Shown: positions 13,806 to 20,614 of the stretch, in pieces
Position numbering within the stretch: the stretch's first letter is position 1
How the letters are laid out: every line of letters starts with the position of its first letter
Virus record (IMG/VR): IMGVR_UViG_3300046314_000272
Location: 1 to 22,151 of that record
DNA from: a virus
Strand: one strand, 5' to 3'
Length of the DNA stretch: 22,151 nt
Made by a program: the position numbers and the translations under genes
The notes under the pieces: generated by a model
Database searches by the model: none
What the model saw: the letters and a program-made list of their open reading frames with translations, nothing else
What the model was told of the DNA's origin: nothing

Positions 13806-15593
13806 TTAAAAAGCGTTTTCGTTAAATCCACTTTGGGTTATTATATCATTTGTTTGGTTTAAAAAATCTTTATTTTCTTGAAGTTTATTTTCTTTCTTTA
13901 AAGTTATCCAACTATCATAATTAGGAGTTCCTTTATAATACCTGCCATTAGTATAGTCCCAACCTAATACTACTAATCCAACTTTTCCCCAATGTTTAAA
14001 TTTTACTTTTTGTATATGAATTTCACTTTGTCCAGTTTCATAATCTCGATATACAGTTATACCGTTTGCTGTTTTATTATAAAAATTTGCGCTGCCTGAA
14101 ATGGAATAAAGATTAGGTACTTCGTATTTTTTAGTAGCTTTATCTTTTTGTATCTTAGTTGGATGTGCAACAAGAAAACAATGCACTTTATTTAATTCGC
14201 AAAATCTAGTAATTTTATCTAATTGTTCACTAATGTATTTAGTTTCATTAGTTGTATACTTATGGTCTAATTTATTCCATGCATCAATAACAAATGCTTT
14301 AATGCCTTTTTTTCGAACTAATTGTCTAACTGAATCTAATATATTTTCAAGTCCAAAATCTTTTTCAGGATTAATAAAGTAAAAGTTATTTGCATGATAA
14401 TCAATCATTTGCTTTAAATCAATTGGACTTAATCGATTAGCTCCTTCAAATGGTTTACCTGTTATTTTTTCTGCAAATTTACTGAAGTGTAATTCTAAAG
14501 GATGGTTTTCAGGGCTATAAAGTGCTATTTTCCAGTCGTGTGAAATATTTAAACGACAAAGTAAAAAGTCTAAAAACTCTGATTTACCATGTCCTGGTAT
14601 TCCAGTAATAGTAGTTAAATACCCTTCTTGAAACCTAATATGCATGTCTAACTCAGCCATACCAATACCGCAACCGTTTGGTAAACCATTATTATAAAAA
14701 TTATAAATATCCTGCTCAATATCATTTGCATTAAATACACCTACTATTGGAAATTCTTTAGCTTCATTAATACATTCAACAACTGTGTTAACACCGTATT
14801 TAATTAAACAATCGTTAGCATCCTTACAATCTTTAAAAATAACCTTACTACAATTTTCAAAACCTAAACGCCTTGCAAGTTCATTTTGTAAATTTAACCC
14901 TGCATTGTCATTATCTAAGGCTAGTATAAACTTAGTATTATCACTAAAAGAATCTATACAATTATCTAAATATTCAAAGTTAATTTTACCTAAACCAGCT
15001 CCATTAGGTACGGATACAACGTTTTTAAAACCACATTCGTATAAAGCTAAACAATCCATTTCACCCTCAACTATTATAATAGTTTCGTAATCAATTGTAC
15101 AATCTAAATTGTAAAAAATAAGTTCAGCGTCTTTGAAAAGTTTAAAGTCTTTATTTTTACCTCTACTTTTAACATTTACAAGTTCACCGTTACGAAAATA
15201 ATTAAATTGAATTGTTGAAATTTCAACCCTTGCTTTTGGCATCCATTCAATTGCTTCTGTAACTTTAAGCTCTAATAGTGTTTTTTCACTAATTAAACGA
15301 GATTTAAAGAACTTTAAACAGTTTTCTGTATATTTACTTACCTCAACTAATTTAGGGCGTTTAAATTCAATCTTATGAGTTTTTGGTTCAAAATCCTTTT
15401 TTTCAACTAAAACTATCCCACAGTGGTTGCAACGTCCTGCTCCTTTGTTTAAGTTAAAGCTAAAACATTTATCCGTTTTCTTTTTACGTTCGCTCGAACA
15501 TTCGGGGCAAGTCATTTGATTCTCACCATTTTTATGAACATCAATAACGTATTCTTTTTTGTCCGCTAGGTTTATTACTTTTAATTCTGCCAT
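13806..15593 (-). CDS. Primase-helicase (T7 gp4-like, Toprim plus DnaB-type ATPase)
   Basis: A 595-residue replication enzyme with three parts. A zinc ribbon has cysteines C29, C32, C55 and C58. A Toprim domain has the glutamate of IIIVEGEMD (residues 172-180) and the acidic pair of LALDNDNAG (224-232). A RecA-like helicase has Walker A TGIPGHGKS (330-338), Walker B KAFVIDAWN (432-440) and the sensor region FLVAHPTK (473-480). The order matches T7 gp4 and phage twinkle-like helicases, which unwind DNA as hexamers at the fork. A separate RNA polymerase core for priming is not obvious, so primase activity is less sure than helicase activity. It follows the initiator-like gene by 4 bases. Confidence 0.9.
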   Translation of the reverse strand: MAELKVINLADKKEYVIDVHKNGENQMTCPECSSERKKKTDKCFSFNLNKGAGRCNHCGIVLVEKKDFEPKTHKIEFKRPKLVEVSKYTENCLKFFKSRLISEKTLLELKVTEAIEWMPKARVEISTIQFNYFRNGELVNVKSRGKNKDFKLFKDAELIFYNLDCTIDYETIIIVEGEMDCLALYECGFKNVVSVPNGAGLGKINFEYLDNCIDSFSDNTKFILALDNDNAGLNLQNELARRLGFENCSKVIFKDCKDANDCLIKYGVNTVVECINEAKEFPIVGVFNANDIEQDIYNFYNNGLPNGCGIGMAELDMHIRFQEGYLTTITGIPGHGKSEFLDFLLCRLNISHDWKIALYSPENHPLELHFSKFAEKITGKPFEGANRLSPIDLKQMIDYHANNFYFINPEKDFGLENILDSVRQLVRKKGIKAFVIDAWNKLDHKYTTNETKYISEQLDKITRFCELNKVHCFLVAHPTKIQKDKATKKYEVPNLYSISGSANFYNKTANGITVYRDYETGQSEIHIQKVKFKHWGKVGLVVLGWDYTNGRYYKGTPNYDSWITLKKENKLQENKDFLNQTNDIITQSGFNENAF

Positions 15594-15597
15594 AATT

Positions 15598-16302
15598 TTA
15601 ACAAACGAACTTAGGTTCGTTATTTGTTGGTGGGTTTAATTTTATCCAGTTTTTAAAATGGCTTACAAATTTACTATAATTTGGATATTCTAATTCAGCT
15701 ACATTTCGAAAGTCAATAAGTTTCTTTTTTACTTGGTCAATTGTAAATTTATTATTCCTTGCAATATCTTCTAAAAATAATCCAGACTCTAAACTTTCAA
15801 AAAAACTATTTATATTATTTTCTATTTTAGTTTCTATTTTAGTTTCTATTTCTCTTTGCTTCGATGTAGGCTTTACATTATTTTCATTTAGGCTTTCAAA
15901 AGGCTTATGTGTAGGCTTACTATTAGGCTTATGTGTAGGCTTACTATTAGGCTTATGTGTAGGCTTACTATTAGGCTTATGTGTAGGCTTACTTTTCTTA
16001 CCTCCATTACTACCTCCGCGTACTAATTTTAAACGATTTTCGCAACTTGGAATAAATAAAATATTTTCATTAATTTCAATAAGATTAAGAACTAATAATT
16101 TATCTAAAATTATATTTAATTCATTATCTGATACACAAAATTTACGAACCCAAACATCTTTCTTAATTTCAGTAGTATTATCATTTAGCATTGCTAAATC
16201 TATAAATTCTCGATATAAACCTCTTTCACTTAAAGATAATTCAAATACACTTTCTGAAGTTCCCCAATCTTTTGGATACCATGTATAACCTAATTTAGAC
16301 AT
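15598..16302 (-). CDS. Replication initiator-like protein with octapeptide repeats
   Basis: A 234-residue protein. The N-terminal 95 residues (WYPKDWGTSESVFELSLSERGLYREF and following) resemble the DUF1376/DnaD-type winged-helix domains found in phage replication proteins. A linker at residues 104-134 consists of four copies of SKPTHKPN. The C-terminal part is helical (LEDIARNNKFTIDQVKKKLI ... YSKFVSHFKNWIKLNPP), like the DnaD C-terminal or helicase-loading domain. It lies directly upstream of the primase-helicase, so a role in origin binding and helicase loading is likely. The start ATG overlaps the previous gene by 8 bases. Assignment is by pattern, not by a firm family match. Confidence 0.65.
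   Translation of the reverse strand: MSKLGYTWYPKDWGTSESVFELSLSERGLYREFIDLAMLNDNTTEIKKDVWVRKFCVSDNELNIILDKLLVLNLIEINENILFIPSCENRLKLVRGGSNGGKKSKPTHKPNSKPTHKPNSKPTHKPNSKPTHKPFESLNENNVKPTSKQREIETKIETKIENNINSFFESLESGLFLEDIARNNKFTIDQVKKKLIDFRNVAELEYPNYSKFVSHFKNWIKLNPPTNNEPKFVC
15901..15992 (-). repeat. Iteron-like tandem repeats within the initiator gene
   Basis: On the plus strand, 24-bp units made of two halves, AGGCTTATGTGT and AGGCTTACTATT, repeat at 15901, 15925 and 15949. A fourth unit at 15973 matches for its first 20 bases. The hexamer AGGCTT therefore recurs eight times at exact 12-bp spacing from 15901 to 15985, with two outlying copies at 15868 and 15890. The array encodes the SKPTHKPN linker. 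Placement inside an initiator gene recalls the lambda origin in gene O. Confidence 0.85.
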
Positions 16303-16528
16303 TTTTAACCTCCATTTCTTTTATAATAGCAATTTCTTTTTTTAAATGCTTTACAAATTTAATAGCAGTTATTAAATCTAAACAAATAAATTGATTTTCA
16401 TAACCATTATTTTCGTCTGGATTATAAATATCAATATAAATTTCATTTTTTGTATTAGCGTAAGCTAACATTTCATGATTAACATCTGAATTATCAGATG
16501 AGCAAAATACAATTTTTGTTTTTTCCAT
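16295..16528 (-). CDS. Small acidic protein of unknown function
   Basis: A 77-residue protein, not recognised. It has a beta-like N-terminal half (TKIVFCSSDN ... NEIYIDIYNPDENNG) and a helical C-terminal half (LDLITAIKFVKHLKKEIAII). It is the first gene downstream of the structured RNA and terminator-like hairpin at 16565-16655, and leads into the initiator gene with an 8-base overlap. That position makes it the gene most directly controlled by the RNA element. It could be a regulatory or host-takeover protein, but nothing in the sequence shows this. Confidence 0.7.
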   Translation of the reverse strand: MEKTKIVFCSSDNSDVNHEMLAYANTKNEIYIDIYNPDENNGYENQFICLDLITAIKFVKHLKKEIAIIKEMEVKNV

Positions 16529-16564: not shown

Positions 16565-16616
16565 AAATAAAAAACCTATCGGTTTTCATCGTGCATGACT
16601 ACTAACCAATAGGTTT
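16565..16616 (-). terminator. U-tailed 13-bp hairpin (possible terminator or attenuator)
   Basis: On the minus strand AAACCTATTGGTT (16616-16604) pairs with AACCGATAGGTTT (16584-16572), with one G-U pair, around a 19-base loop. It is followed by TTTTTTATTT. It lies after the small 55-residue gene and 44 bases before the next ATG. It could terminate the early transcript or act as an attenuator in the leader of the next gene. Confidence 0.6.
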
Positions 16617-16655
16617 AATGTTAATTTTTTAAATTCGGTAATGCACTACCAATTT
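16565..16655 (-). ncRNA. Structured kissing-loop RNA element, copy A
   Basis: Transcribed leftward, the RNA begins with hairpin 1 (16655-16631): stem AAATTGGTA against TACC-G-AATTT, with one bulge, closing a loop that is exactly GTGCAT. A 14-base AT spacer follows, then the 13-bp U-tailed hairpin, whose 19-base loop contains ATGCAC (16596-16591). The two loops are perfectly complementary over six bases and could form a loop-loop kissing interaction. A promoter-like pair abuts the 5' end, so a discrete RNA of about 90 bases or a structured leader is possible. Copy B near 19.5 kb has the same design with different pairing bases. Confidence 0.55.
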
Positions 16656-16688
16656 CAAAAATACTAATTAAATTACAATATCACAAAA
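16656..16688 (-). promoter_or_regulatory. Bacteroidota promoter for RNA element A
   Basis: On the minus strand TTTTG (16688-16684) and the -7 box TATTTTTG (16663-16656) are separated by 20 bases, matching the TTTG / TAnnTTTG consensus of the Bacteroidota primary sigma factor. The box ends one base before hairpin 1, so the transcript would start within the first bases of that hairpin. It lies over the end of the 55-residue gene. Confidence 0.55.
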
Positions 16689-16835: not shown

Positions 16836-17070
16836 TTAAACTTTTTCTTATTTCTAAATTAATATTATGATAAATATCTGTTATATTATTAACATATCCT
16901 TCATTTATTTTATTTTGCTTTTCTAATTCTTCTAAAATTTTAAAACCTTGTTTTTGCCAAATATTAAATTCTTGTTTTAACTTTTGTTTATACTCTCCAG
17001 TTAGAGTAGTCGATTGCTCAACTACTCCTTTAATAAGTGCTATAAAAATTTGAGTTTCTGTTTGTATCAT
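16801..17070 (-). CDS. Small helical protein of unknown function
   Basis: An 89-residue, strongly helical and coiled-coil-like protein (EYKQKLKQEFNIWQKQGFKI, LEELEKQNKINEGYV). No signal peptide or catalytic motif is visible and I do not recognise the family. The ATG overlaps the methyltransferase stop by 4 bases (ATGA), so it is co-translated with it. A partner role for the methyltransferase-helicase pair is possible but rests only on position. Confidence 0.65.
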   Translation of the reverse strand: MIQTETQIFIALIKGVVEQSTTLTGEYKQKLKQEFNIWQKQGFKILEELEKQNKINEGYVNNITDIYHNINLEIRKSLNEKITQSNKRA

Positions 17071-18113
17071 AAACTTTCTAAATTTTCAGATTCAAATAAA
17101 TTTATTTGTTTAGCATTTTCAATAAATCTTTTTTCAACTAAATCTAAATTTATTTTAGCTTGTTTAAAATAACTGTCTTTTAATTCAATACCAATAGCTT
17201 TTCTACCTAATGAAATAGGACTATAAACCTCACTACCTACCCCCATAAATGGAGTTAAAACAACTTCATTATGGTTTGAATATAACATTACAATTCTATC
17301 AATTACATCTAATTGTAAAGGGTGTACGTGTTTTTCGTCATCTTCTTCTTTTGAATCTCTAAAAGGTAAAATATTATCTATTCTAATATCATCCCAAACA
17401 GAACTAGCGTATCTTTGCCAAATATAATGACTTAATTTATTTGATTTTGGGTCTTCATGATTTATAAATTTAGTGTTTAAATATTCCCATAATTGCTCTT
17501 CATTAAAATCAGAATCGTTTGCATTATTCCAAGCTCTTAAAATGTTTGGTAAAATTGGAGTTTCACCAGCATAATATTTTAATCCGTTTTCGTGTGTTAC
17601 AGGAACTTCATTTTCTCCTTTTTTAGTAAATATCAATACATAATCAGGCATAGCCGTAAAACATTTTGTGCTATCTTCTACAATAAATTTATGCATTAAA
17701 GATTGTACCATTGTACGCATCCTAACTTTTAAAGGCTCTTTCCAAATTGTAATACGATTACGGTATTCAAATCCGTACTTTTCATGTAATCTAATTATTT
17801 CATGAGGAAAATCCCACAACCTACAAGTATTATCAAATACATCTGTACAGTGTACAGCTGTAATTCTACCTTTTTTAGTAACCCTTGCAATCTCTTTTAT
17901 CAAAAATTCGTATTGGTCTAAAAACTGTTCTTTACTTTCACAATTACTAAAATCATTTTCACTACTTGAGTAGTTATAAAGCCCTGCAAATGGTGGACTA
18001 TAAACTGATAGGTCAATACTTTCAGTATCTAAAGTTGGTAATACTAACATACAATCACTATTGTATATTGCATAATTTTCTGTAATTAATTGGTCTTTTA
18101 CTTTGTTTTCCAT
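17067..18113 (-). CDS. Beta-class DNA amino-methyltransferase (N4-cytosine or N6-adenine)
   Basis: A 348-residue protein with the catalytic motif IV first (VYSPPF, residues 37-42) and the SAM-binding motif late: HPLQLDVIDRIV (264-275), LTPFMGVGSE (286-295) and AIGIE (306-310). This order defines the beta class of DNA amino-methyltransferases. The SPPF form is commonest among N4-cytosine enzymes but also occurs in N6-adenine ones. It methylates specific DNA sites and in phages often protects against host restriction. It directly follows the DEAD-type helicase gene, 11 bases apart, a pairing often seen in phage genomes. The start follows TTTTAAAAATAAATA-AC. Confidence 0.9.
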   Translation of the reverse strand: MENKVKDQLITENYAIYNSDCMLVLPTLDTESIDLSVYSPPFAGLYNYSSSENDFSNCESKEQFLDQYEFLIKEIARVTKKGRITAVHCTDVFDNTCRLWDFPHEIIRLHEKYGFEYRNRITIWKEPLKVRMRTMVQSLMHKFIVEDSTKCFTAMPDYVLIFTKKGENEVPVTHENGLKYYAGETPILPNILRAWNNANDSDFNEEQLWEYLNTKFINHEDPKSNKLSHYIWQRYASSVWDDIRIDNILPFRDSKEEDDEKHVHPLQLDVIDRIVMLYSNHNEVVLTPFMGVGSEVYSPISLGRKAIGIELKDSYFKQAKINLDLVEKRFIENAKQINLFESENLESL

Positions 18114-18124
18114 GTTATTTATTT

Positions 18125-19138
18125 TTAAAATTTAGGTTTAATTATTTCTTTTGTAAATTCTCTTTTTTGTATTTCGTAAATACTATTTATGTTTTGTGAT
18201 AATTTTGTAAACATATCATTTGCCTTTTCTTTTTTAACGGTTAAACTATCCATAATACGAGTTTGCCCATCAGATAAAACTAAATCAACTATAACATTAT
18301 TTTTTTGTCCAAACCTCCAAAAACGTCTAATAGCTTGATAATATTGTTCATATGAATATGTAGGAAAATATGTAGTATGGTTACAATGCTGCCAATTTAA
18401 TCCAAAAGCTGTTATTTTAGTTTTTGTAATTAATTTTTTTATTTCTCCTTTTGCAAATCCGATTAACATTTCTTCTTTTTGTTCTATTGACATATCACCT
18501 TTTATTTCATGTGAATTTTTATCTAATGATTTTAATAATTTAGCCTCATCATTTAAATTAACCCAATAAACACTAGTATTATGTTTACTAGATAAATCAA
18601 AAGCTTTTTCACATCTTTCATTTAAAGTATTTCTAGTTTCTTTTTTAATATCAAAAAAATTAACCGCTGGCATATTAAACATTTGCATTTGATTATTTAA
18701 TGAATTTAATATACTGTTATTTTTTACTATATGTTTATTTTCTATCAATTGTGGTAAATTATATTTTTCGTCACTAAACCCTAAATCACTAGGCTTACGA
18801 ATTGAGATAGCCCACTGACTAACCCATTTCCAAAAATCATTTTCTGCATGAGGTTTAATATACCATTCACAACCAGCGTGTCTAATATCAATAGAATTAC
18901 CATTGTTTTTAAAAAACTTACTTAACATATCTGTATAACCTAAATAACCTAAAGCCTCACTACTTGTACCTAATTCAATATAATCATTAGGACTAGGTGT
19001 TGCTGTACTTAAAAATCTATATGGTATTTTTTTAATAAATGAGGTTATAGAGTTTTTAATTTTACCATCAAAATTTTTTAAAATAGAACTTTCGTCTAAA
19101 ATAACTCCTACAAAGTAAACGCTCATAATTACATACAA
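18125..19138 (-). CDS. DEAD/SNF2-type helicase, C-terminal part (frameshifted gene)
   Basis: The frame encodes 337 residues and carries the motifs downstream of the break: FVGVILDESSILKNF (motif II, DESS at residues 15-18), STATPSPNDY (motif III, 44-53), motif V around KITAFGLNWQ (241-250) and motif VI QAIRRFWRFGQ (268-278). It lacks Walker A, which is in the neighbouring frame at 19068-19469. Together they form one phage SNF2-like helicase of the kind adjacent to DNA methyltransferases. The upstream ATG codons in this frame sit in the overlap and are probably not native. Alone, this half could not hydrolyse ATP. Confidence 0.8.
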   Translation of the reverse strand: MYVIMSVYFVGVILDESSILKNFDGKIKNSITSFIKKIPYRFLSTATPSPNDYIELGTSSEALGYLGYTDMLSKFFKNNGNSIDIRHAGCEWYIKPHAENDFWKWVSQWAISIRKPSDLGFSDEKYNLPQLIENKHIVKNNSILNSLNNQMQMFNMPAVNFFDIKKETRNTLNERCEKAFDLSSKHNTSVYWVNLNDEAKLLKSLDKNSHEIKGDMSIEQKEEMLIGFAKGEIKKLITKTKITAFGLNWQHCNHTTYFPTYSYEQYYQAIRRFWRFGQKNNVIVDLVLSDGQTRIMDSLTVKKEKANDMFTKLSQNINSIYEIQKREFTKEIIKPKF

Positions 19139-19469
19139 CTATTTTTTTATTATGCTTACCATCTTTAGAATATTCAATATCATCAATACCTAATTTTTCA
19201 GCTTCTAAAATAAATTGAAAAGCAACCGCTAAAGGTGTTAAAATCAATACTTTTTTATTAGTATGATTAATTATATTTTTAGCTATTGATAATTGGATTA
19301 ATGTTTTACCTAAACCAGTATCAGCAAAAATAGCTGTTCTACCTTTTAAGATAGCTTTTTCAATAATGTGTTTTTGAAAATCAAAAGCAATTTCAGGAAT
19401 GTAATTTGAATTAAATCCAAAATTACCTATTGAATGTTTTTTGTTTTCTAAAAATTTTTGATACTCCAT
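19068..19469 (-). CDS. DEAD/SNF2-type helicase, N-terminal part (frameshifted gene)
   Basis: The frame encodes 133 residues with Walker A FADTGLGKT (residues 48-56), motif Ia LTPLAVAFQ (77-85) and IVVCNYERL (110-118). It then runs out of register and ends after 15 unrelated residues (LCRSYFRRKFYFKKF). The rest of the protein continues in the +1 frame from about 19114 (FVGVILDESS). In related phage helicases NYExL is followed by roughly seven residues and then FxGVxxDESS, so about 20 bases seem to be missing here. The gene is either broken or expressed by +1 frameshifting. Its start follows the structured leader, copy B. Confidence 0.75.
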   Translation of the reverse strand: MEYQKFLENKKHSIGNFGFNSNYIPEIAFDFQKHIIEKAILKGRTAIFADTGLGKTLIQLSIAKNIINHTNKKVLILTPLAVAFQFILEAEKLGIDDIEYSKDGKHNKKIVVCNYERLLCRSYFRRKFYFKKF

Positions 19470-19483
19470 AATTTAAAATAAGA

Positions 19484-19570
19484 AACCCATTCAATAAGTA
19501 GTTGCAGTTACCTATCAAATGGGTTCTTTAGTCTATTTGACTAATTTTATGAATACGCTGCAACCCGTAT
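19484..19570 (-). ncRNA. Structured kissing-loop RNA element, copy B
   Basis: In transcript order: hairpin 1 (19570-19553), stem ATACG/CGTAT with loop GGTTGCAG; a middle hairpin (19544-19528), stem TTAGTC/GACTAA with a 5-base loop; then hairpin 2, AACCCATTTGATA (19525-19513) with TATTGAATGGGTT (19496-19484), 13 pairs including two G-U. Hairpin 2 has a 16-base loop containing CTGCAAC (19507-19501), which is perfectly complementary to GTTGCAG of loop 1. Hairpin 2 is followed by TCTTATTTT and the helicase ATG. The design matches copy A, with different pairing bases. Confidence 0.55.
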
Positions 19571-19626
19571 ATTTTTACAAATAAAAGTATAATATTTTAA
19601 ATAAAAAAATTTATTTTAATTTATTT

Positions 19627-19634
19627 CAAAAATA
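19627..19634 (-). promoter_or_regulatory. -7 box TATTTTTG upstream of RNA element B
   Basis: This is an exact TAnnTTTG match on the minus strand and identical to the box of copy A. The nearest TTG (19646-19644) is only 9 bases further upstream, so no standard -33 element is evident. It lies about 56 bases before hairpin 1 and gives a leader of about 150 bases. Confidence 0.4.
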
Positions 19635-19670: not shown

Positions 19671-20603
19671 CTAATCTAATAGTCCCCAATTTGGTATTAA
19701 AGATTTATTTTTAGATATTTCTTTATATCTTTTTTCACCTAAAATTCTTAAATCAATTTCAGGATAATATTTAGCCATTCTTTTAATTTTTGTTTTTGAT
19801 TTAGTATCCATCCATCCTTTAACCTCTTCAAAATATTGAGTACCGTCATTATTTGTAATTAAAAAATCAGGCTTATAAGAACGAACTCCTCGCATTATTT
19901 TTTCAAACCAAAATGTTTTAACTTCTAAATCCCAATCTTTTATCTCTCCATTATCCTTTAATAATTGAAAGTAAGCGCAAATATTTGCTTCCCATCCAGA
20001 CCTACAAAAAACTTTTTTACCTCCTATTTCGATAGTTCCTTTTTTTGATTTTGAATATATGTTTCCAGTATTACTATTTAATCTCATGTTTATTAATTTA
20101 CTAAATTTATCTGATAATTTTTGTCTATATTCTTTTGTATTAACTTTACTTTTAGGATTTTTCCACATTTTAATAGATGATTCAGACATTAGTTTTTTAG
20201 ATTTATCACTATGCTTACTATTTAAAAACCCTTTTGGATGACCTTTTTCTTTAATCCATTTTTTAGAACTTATAGATGCTTTATTTTTTGATTCATCCGA
20301 AAAATTTCTATTTCTTTTAGTTTCTAATCCTAATAATTTAGCCTTTCTACAAACATTTGATTTAATTTTATTATGTTTATTACAAAAATCATTTAATACA
20401 TTACTTCCATAATTAAAATTACTTTTATAAATTTCAATTAATTCATTTATTTGTAATTCACTCCATAATCCATCTATACTTGTATTAACTCCATTTTTAT
20501 TTAAAATAGTATGTACTCTTTGACCAGTTAAATTATTCATTTCTCCAGTTTTCCAAATGTTTTTTGTGACTGAATAATCTTGTATTATTTTATTTATATC
20601 CAT
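19671..20603 (-). CDS. Putative homing endonuclease, NUMOD3 plus PD-(D/E)XK
   Basis: A 310-residue protein from the ATG at 20603. (A TTG two codons earlier lies inside the -7 box and is rejected. Residue numbers here count from that TTG; subtract 2.) The N-terminal part has a helix-turn-helix-like region (VCRKAKLLGL). A basic region at 103-150 shows NUMOD3-type repeats (FSDESKNKASISSKKW, HSDKSKKLMSESSIKMW), found as DNA-binding units of mobile endonucleases. The C-terminal part has a PD-(D/E)XK nuclease pattern: E207 in SGWEAN, D248 in YKPDF and E262-x-K264 in EEVKG. It lies alone between unrelated genes with its own promoter-like box, as a free-standing homing gene would. Confidence 0.75.
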   Translation of the reverse strand: MDINKIIQDYSVTKNIWKTGEMNNLTGQRVHTILNKNGVNTSIDGLWSELQINELIEIYKSNFNYGSNVLNDFCNKHNKIKSNVCRKAKLLGLETKRNRNFSDESKNKASISSKKWIKEKGHPKGFLNSKHSDKSKKLMSESSIKMWKNPKSKVNTKEYRQKLSDKFSKLINMRLNSNTGNIYSKSKKGTIEIGGKKVFCRSGWEANICAYFQLLKDNGEIKDWDLEVKTFWFEKIMRGVRSYKPDFLITNNDGTQYFEEVKGWMDTKSKTKIKRMAKYYPEIDLRILGEKRYKEISKNKSLIPNWGLLD

Positions 20604-20606
20604 ATT

Positions 20607-20614
20607 CAAATATA
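20607..20614 (-). promoter_or_regulatory. -7 box TATATTTG, 3 bases before an ATG
   Basis: The minus strand reads TATATTTG-AAT-ATG before the endonuclease gene. The octamer is identical to those before the 125-residue protein and the metallophosphoesterase. A TTG lies 12 bases upstream (20629-20627), short for a -33 element. A very short or absent leader is implied. Confidence 0.5.

Follow-up and report, generated by a model that had tools for sequence, protein, structure and literature searches.

The leader of the helicase gene examined here (copy B) probably encodes a promoter-proximal attenuator, one member of a family of RNA elements that is specific to phages of Bacteroidota as far as tested. 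The likeliest function of such an element is that of a conditional terminator at the head of an operon, where kissing between the terminator and a hairpin at the 5' end of the transcript would set read-through. Two elements were counted within the window, the whole 22,151-nucleotide stretch that was analyzed (a 22-kb IMG/VR fragment of a genome that may hold further copies), and both are read on the minus strand (Table 1). The initial annotation had described them as kissing-loop elements of a common design that head a helicase-methyltransferase unit (copy B) and a replication unit (copy A). This is borne out by the same parts being present in both copies and by the rarity of their loop matches in shuffled sequences. 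The pairing letters vary between the copies yet match within each, which argues for a real control element.

Table 1. Features of the two elements and of the genes behind them (window positions).
Feature	Positions	Strand	Basis or remark
Copy B alternative -7 box TATTTTTG (box of the initial annotation)	19627..19634	-	perfect TAnnTTTG
Copy B promoter, probable -7 box TTTATTTG	19578..19585	-	family-like position relative to H1
Copy B H1 hairpin, ATACG-GGTTGCAG-CGTAT, loop GTTGCAG	19553..19570	-	direct sequence reading
Copy B kissing segment k1, GTTGCAG	19558..19564	-	
Copy B additional linker hairpin, TTAGTC-AAATA-GACTAA	19528..19544	-	sequence; also in L002
Copy B terminator hairpin	19482..19526	-	
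Copy B k2, CTGCAAC, inside terminator loop	19501..19507	-	perfect complement of k1, 7 bp
Copy B interrupted (broken) U-tract	19475..19485	-	sequence
SNF2/DEAD-type helicase behind copy B	18125..19469	-	read as frames 19068-19469 and 18125-19138, which overlap
N6/N4 DNA methyltransferase, second gene of copy B unit	17067..18113	-	Pfam N6_N4_Mtase
Copy A -7 promoter box TATTTTTG	16656..16663	-	TTG at 16686-16684
Copy A H1 hairpin, GGTA-GTGCAT-TACC	16637..16650	-	stems compensated in L093, L099, L100
Copy A k1, GTGCAT	16641..16646	-	GGGCAT with partner ATGCCC in L093, L099, L100
Copy A terminator hairpin	16572..16616	-	
Copy A k2, ATGCAC, inside terminator loop	16591..16596	-	6 bp with k1
Copy A U-tract	16566..16574	-	sequence
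Replication unit behind copy A: 77-aa ORF, 234-aa ORF, primase-helicase	13806..16528	-	

A perfect 7-mer loop match like that of copy B arose in 0.055% of terminator-interior shuffles, and the folding energy of this copy is below that of all 200 shuffles (z = -5.1). The 6-mer match of copy A arose in 0.34% of such shuffles; its folding energy lies near the shuffle limit (z = -3.0) and is less striking than that of copy B. The middle hairpin of copy B recurs in its nearest relative, L002, and is absent from the remaining family. Assignment of the copy B promoter is less certain. The initial annotation had taken the TATTTTTG box as the counterpart of the copy A box, which is probably wrong: it lies 62 nt ahead of the kissing segment, and boxes of this type occur seven times in the window against a chance expectation of 6.4. 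Since the median distance from box to kissing segment in the family is 13 nt, we favor TTTATTTG at 19585-19578; a covariance model likewise places the start of copy B at 19585. This box matches TAnnTTTG less well, so that either box is possible and the predicted start site is uncertain. The distance to the ATG, originally given as 14 bases, depends on which stem end is chosen and is 12 bases when counted from 19482 to the ATG at 19469.

The helicase frame is broken at 19068-19138 (minus strand) of the window, and in L002 it is a single open frame of 462 codons; the break may be an assembly error or a real frameshift. Upstream of copy B, a gene at 19671-20609 (minus strand) is similar to Holliday junction resolvases/endonucleases of phages (PHROG 190, Pfam DUF1064). 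Within the 234-aa ORF behind copy A, a 24-bp tandem repeat (15877-16008, minus strand) encodes a repeated KPTHKPNS motif. The helicase-methyltransferase pair of OP947161.1 (L083), a record labeled Rhodobacteraceae, is about 74% identical in DNA to that of the window and nearly as near to it as are the pairs of Flavobacterium phages; the host label looks doubtful.

Relatives were collected in scans of viral contigs that used three genes as queries (helicase, primase-helicase and terminase) and gave 197 loci; cultured phages were added. A first, loose hairpin scan was flooded by AT-rich false terminators; a promoter box, a T-tract and a loop complement were then required. In 1.69 Mb the descriptor (a promoter-like box, a 5' segment, a linker and a terminator containing the complement) had 66 matches, of which 43 are distinct, compared to four in one dinucleotide shuffle. 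Additional copies are present in relatives, where the initial annotation had suggested looking. Because this search requires the complement, covariance model R1 was built from 11 homologous elements with the loop pairing left out. Outside its seed, 35 of 36 matches carry a perfect complement, compared to 8.5% after loops were re-paired between matches. A second model, R2, applied to other loci, gave 15 further matches, 14 with the complement (12% expected). When the two models are combined, 49 of 51 non-seed elements keep the loop complement where about 10% would be expected; only one element, L113, is a clear exception, and it amounts to a truncated terminator of the plain kind. This is the opposite of stems being kept and complementarity being lost in relatives, the outcome that the initial annotation had associated with simple terminators.

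The models returned no match up to E = 1 in T4 (50 kb), phi11, 6H, OP947161 and MW202426. R2 also gave no match in 397 genomes from the family to which G001 (the Lutibacter MAG that holds L215) belongs, but with just 10 candidates scored per genome this result carries no information. BLASTN of an element against phages returned noise only, because the primary sequence is too variable. Among homologs of the helicase, a terminator precedes the ATG in 12 of 80 and many are without such a leader; in some homologs (L025 and L027) the terminator precedes the ATG with no detectable kissing partner.

Elements of the family share an order of parts: a TAnnTTTG promoter, the small H1 hairpin, an A-rich linker, an intrinsic-terminator hairpin whose apical loop perfectly complements the H1 loop over 6-10 nt, a U-tract (short or broken in some elements) and an ATG, in most cases 8-46 nt on. 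H1 and the terminator are 20-50 nt apart, and an ORF starts 5-46 nt past the terminator in nearly all distinct matches. The box has A at position 2 in 87% of elements, and a TTG peak lies 20-22 nt upstream of it in 33 of 71 elements, the upstream bases having been outside the selection criteria. TAnnTTTG with an upstream TTG is the primary promoter consensus of Bacteroidota (PMC7366714). Since the kissing segment begins a median of 13 nt past the box, the transcript is predicted to begin with H1.

The kissing segments are richer in G+C than the element as a whole (57% versus 39%), and 54 distinct kissing sequences occur among 72 elements. Several elements can occur in one genome, and their loop codes are then mutually orthogonal; cross-complementarity between elements within one record is at most 4 nt. 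The initial annotation had considered the TGCA palindrome in the loops of both window copies as a protein contact or dimerization site. TGCA occurs in just seven of the 72 elements, and its presence in both copies is, judging from this comparison, a coincidence. Dimerization of the RNA through a palindrome and a protein site at TGCA were both rejected, as no palindromic core is conserved. A shared regulator of both units, as suggested in the initial annotation, would need to read structure rather than sequence, because each copy has pairing letters of its own.

Compensatory change was observed in all stems and in the kissing helix of the 11-sequence homologous set. In this set 98.8% of cells are paired and 14 of 23 pairs are doubly changed, which none of 500 shuffles matched. 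The loop-loop covariation suspected from the two copies within one genome was recovered here as well: pairing in the kissing helix is 100%, four of its seven pairs are doubly changed, and it has 13 doubly changed cells compared to 2.9 in shuffles; slid controls collapse. Because this set was selected with the complement required, the unbiased evidence is the model test described above. The alignment made with the covariance model (A3), in which the loops of distant members were misplaced, gave no covariation count.

Individual relatives illustrate these changes. L002 has the same loops at the same place as copy B and a compensated H1 stem (ATTGG/CCAAT versus ATACG/CGTAT), and L234, on a contig binned in a Lutibacter genome, has GTTGCAG/CTGCAAC ahead of a helicase with the H1 stem GATA/TATC. 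In the copy A relatives (L093, L099 and L100) one kissing pair is doubly changed to give GGGCAT/ATGCCC, and the H1 stems are swapped in step. Two cultured phages differ at the same place, GTGGAACG/CGTTCCAC in snusmum versus GTGAGACG/CGTCTCAC in hattifnatt, with flanks that are 92% alike outside the loops. Across the whole set, rates were 0.35-0.36 in loops and 0.17-0.27 elsewhere; some of the alignments are dubious, and we do not take this comparison as proof.

Cultured carriers are the Flavobacterium phages snusmum and hattifnatt, with three elements each (two by R1 and the helicase leader by the descriptor), and FCV-1, with two; the contig of L002 has three. Genes downstream serve mostly replication and recombination or encode endonucleases; several are helicases, DUF6291 proteins, ERF recombinases or endonucleases, and many more are short ORFs without a name. 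In operons that do not begin with the DUF6291 gene, several model matches precede the small ORF ahead of it. The annotated helicase starts of snusmum (L085, 9791) and hattifnatt (L086, 9441) fall within the leader terminator hairpin, and translation more likely starts at the ATG 18 nt past it.

Start sites, termination and read-through of the elements are predictions from sequence, and the following mechanism is proposed on that footing. Transcription from the host-type TAnnTTTG promoter is predicted to begin at or just ahead of H1, and an intrinsic terminator with a loop exactly complementary to that of H1 would form 20-50 nt downstream, directly ahead of the operon. Because H1, the terminator stems and the loop pairing all show compensatory change, the RNA can be taken to fold as an H1-terminator kissing complex, and this contact could form once the terminator loop exits the polymerase. 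The arrangement is that of an attenuator: a promoter, an intrinsic terminator and a gene start, with no space for a second promoter. This order implies that the operon would be transcribed from the leader promoter only via read-through. The mutually exclusive antiterminator helix of a classical attenuator was not found in the element, since k1-k2 pairing within the loops coexists with the terminator stem. This counts against the reading, as do the short or broken U-tracts of some elements and the helicase homologs that have no kissing partner or no leader. The two complementary hairpin loops, with compensatory changes in the loop-loop helix, are those of a kissing-loop RNA. Selection keeps the contact while its letters change, which means that the contact matters for the role of the RNA; it would set terminator efficiency, whether by promoting or by preventing termination, and provide a conditional stop for replication and recombination genes. 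Candidate inputs are a structure-reading protein of the phage or the host, the speed of elongation, Mg2+ and, in a subset with leader ORFs, translation.

Several other explanations bear on the same observations. AT-rich DNA is rich in weak hairpins, and relaxed criteria yielded many false matches, as would be expected if the elements were ordinary terminators or unrelated hairpins with loops that match by chance; we regard this as extremely improbable, as it is refuted by the shuffles, the re-pairing tests and the compensatory changes. A stable non-coding RNA or an mRNA cap, in which a 5' hairpin locked to the 3' terminator yields an exonuclease-proof RNA or protects the 5' end and control of termination is incidental, would account for the position of H1 at the predicted 5' end and for kissing that joins the 5' and 3' ends. 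Such closed RNAs would presumably be stable. However, the gene is so near that its expression must pass the terminator, something not required of a gene that makes only a small RNA, and outside the promoter and the A-rich linker the primary sequence is poorly conserved, unlike that of a trans-acting RNA with fixed targets. We consider this explanation unlikely. Coupling to translation, with a ribosome on a short leader ORF beside k1 blocking the terminator and the k1-k2 contact closing the start region, is quite improbable as a general account. Of the 74 distinct elements, about 10 have an ATG directly past k1 that opens an ORF of 14-35 codons entering the terminator, often with an MKKL-like product (L014, L022, L094, L106, L139, L165, L174 and L196), which suggests a translation input for that subset. 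Most elements, including both window copies, are without such an ORF, and any ATG at all is found in 28 of 72 leaders; a leader ORF as a feature of all elements was rejected. Several of the elements with leader ORFs have ACATTGCC in common within a terminator arm.

Action in trans is the remaining alternative. The leader could be a self-limiting antisense RNA, the H1 loop of terminated RNA pairing with the terminator loop of new transcripts and raising termination. This would provide a switch that responds to copy number or superinfection, comparable to CI RNA in satellite phage P4, in which replication genes are blocked by premature termination via a leader-complementary RNA (PMC4825925), and the loop codes would define specificity groups. 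The orthogonal loop codes within genomes are consistent with such groups, as are several near-identical pairs that vary more in loops (4 of 14-16 positions) than in flanks. Yet orthogonality is expected of random 6-9-mers anyway, the loop-flank comparison rests on rough AT-rich alignments with loops unchanged in many pairs, and intramolecular pairing should beat pairing in trans, so we judge this explanation unlikely. A broader conjecture, which we likewise hold to be unlikely, is that of a widespread phage RNA switch in which the 5'-end hairpin kisses its own terminator loop with a private, fast-changing code per operon and also recognizes its own kind in trans as a sensor of copy number or superinfection. 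An attenuator acting within its own transcript is the reading that we prefer.

Elements of this kind appear to be previously undescribed. Full-loop kissing with diversified loop letters is also a property of ColE1 RNA I and RNA II, which have 7-nt hairpin loops; there, two RNAs act in trans to control a replication primer, whereas the Bacteroidota element is one RNA with a terminator. Riboswitches with loop-loop contacts, such as the purine riboswitches, similarly combine a leader RNA, tertiary loop-loop kissing and a terminator expression platform, but the element is without a conserved ligand-pocket core, its kissing partner is the terminator loop, and it has no match in Rfam. At the Rfam gathering threshold no family matched in the window and 12 relatives, except for one tRNA in L009; a sub-threshold match to JA04 (E 2.3) was dismissed as chance. 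Literature searches of open-access papers found no description of the element, although absence there is not proof. The palindromic Bacteroidetes phage candidate HMP_4078 (PMC8040213) can be set beside the elements by description alone.

Three phage systems are closer in logic. In satellite phage P4, two sites of the phage's own leader, the seqA-seqC leader, are complementary to CI RNA, which causes premature termination (PMC4825925). The Bacteroidota elements likewise place self-complementary segments in replication-operon leaders, but the P4 RNA is processed and acts in trans in the lysogenic state (PMC4825925), whereas in the Bacteroidota elements both partners are loops of hairpins within a single leader, the terminator loop being one of the two, and the elements are repeated at several operons with different letters. 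Lambda pR'-tR' with Q (PMC4825925) similarly places an operon-gating terminator closely behind a promoter; there, recruitment of Q takes place on DNA close to the promoter, with no loop-loop pairing, and no antiterminator gene was identified for the Bacteroidota elements. At the IsrK leader of prophage Gifsy-1, one phage promoter also gives a short terminated RNA and a read-through mRNA, but IsrK opens translation in trans and terminator-loop kissing is not described for it (PMC4825925). Collectively, these comparisons suggest that the element may be a kind of attenuator with a new RNA structure class and a logic that resembles those of P4 CI and pR'-tR'.

Gene control in phages of Bacteroidota has been little studied, and the elements head replication and recombination operons in phages that are in culture and amenable to experiment. 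Because the loop code is modular, compensatory swaps offer a clean test of its effect. If the proposed reading is true, a terminator loop bound by the 5' hairpin of its own transcript would represent a new attenuator design.
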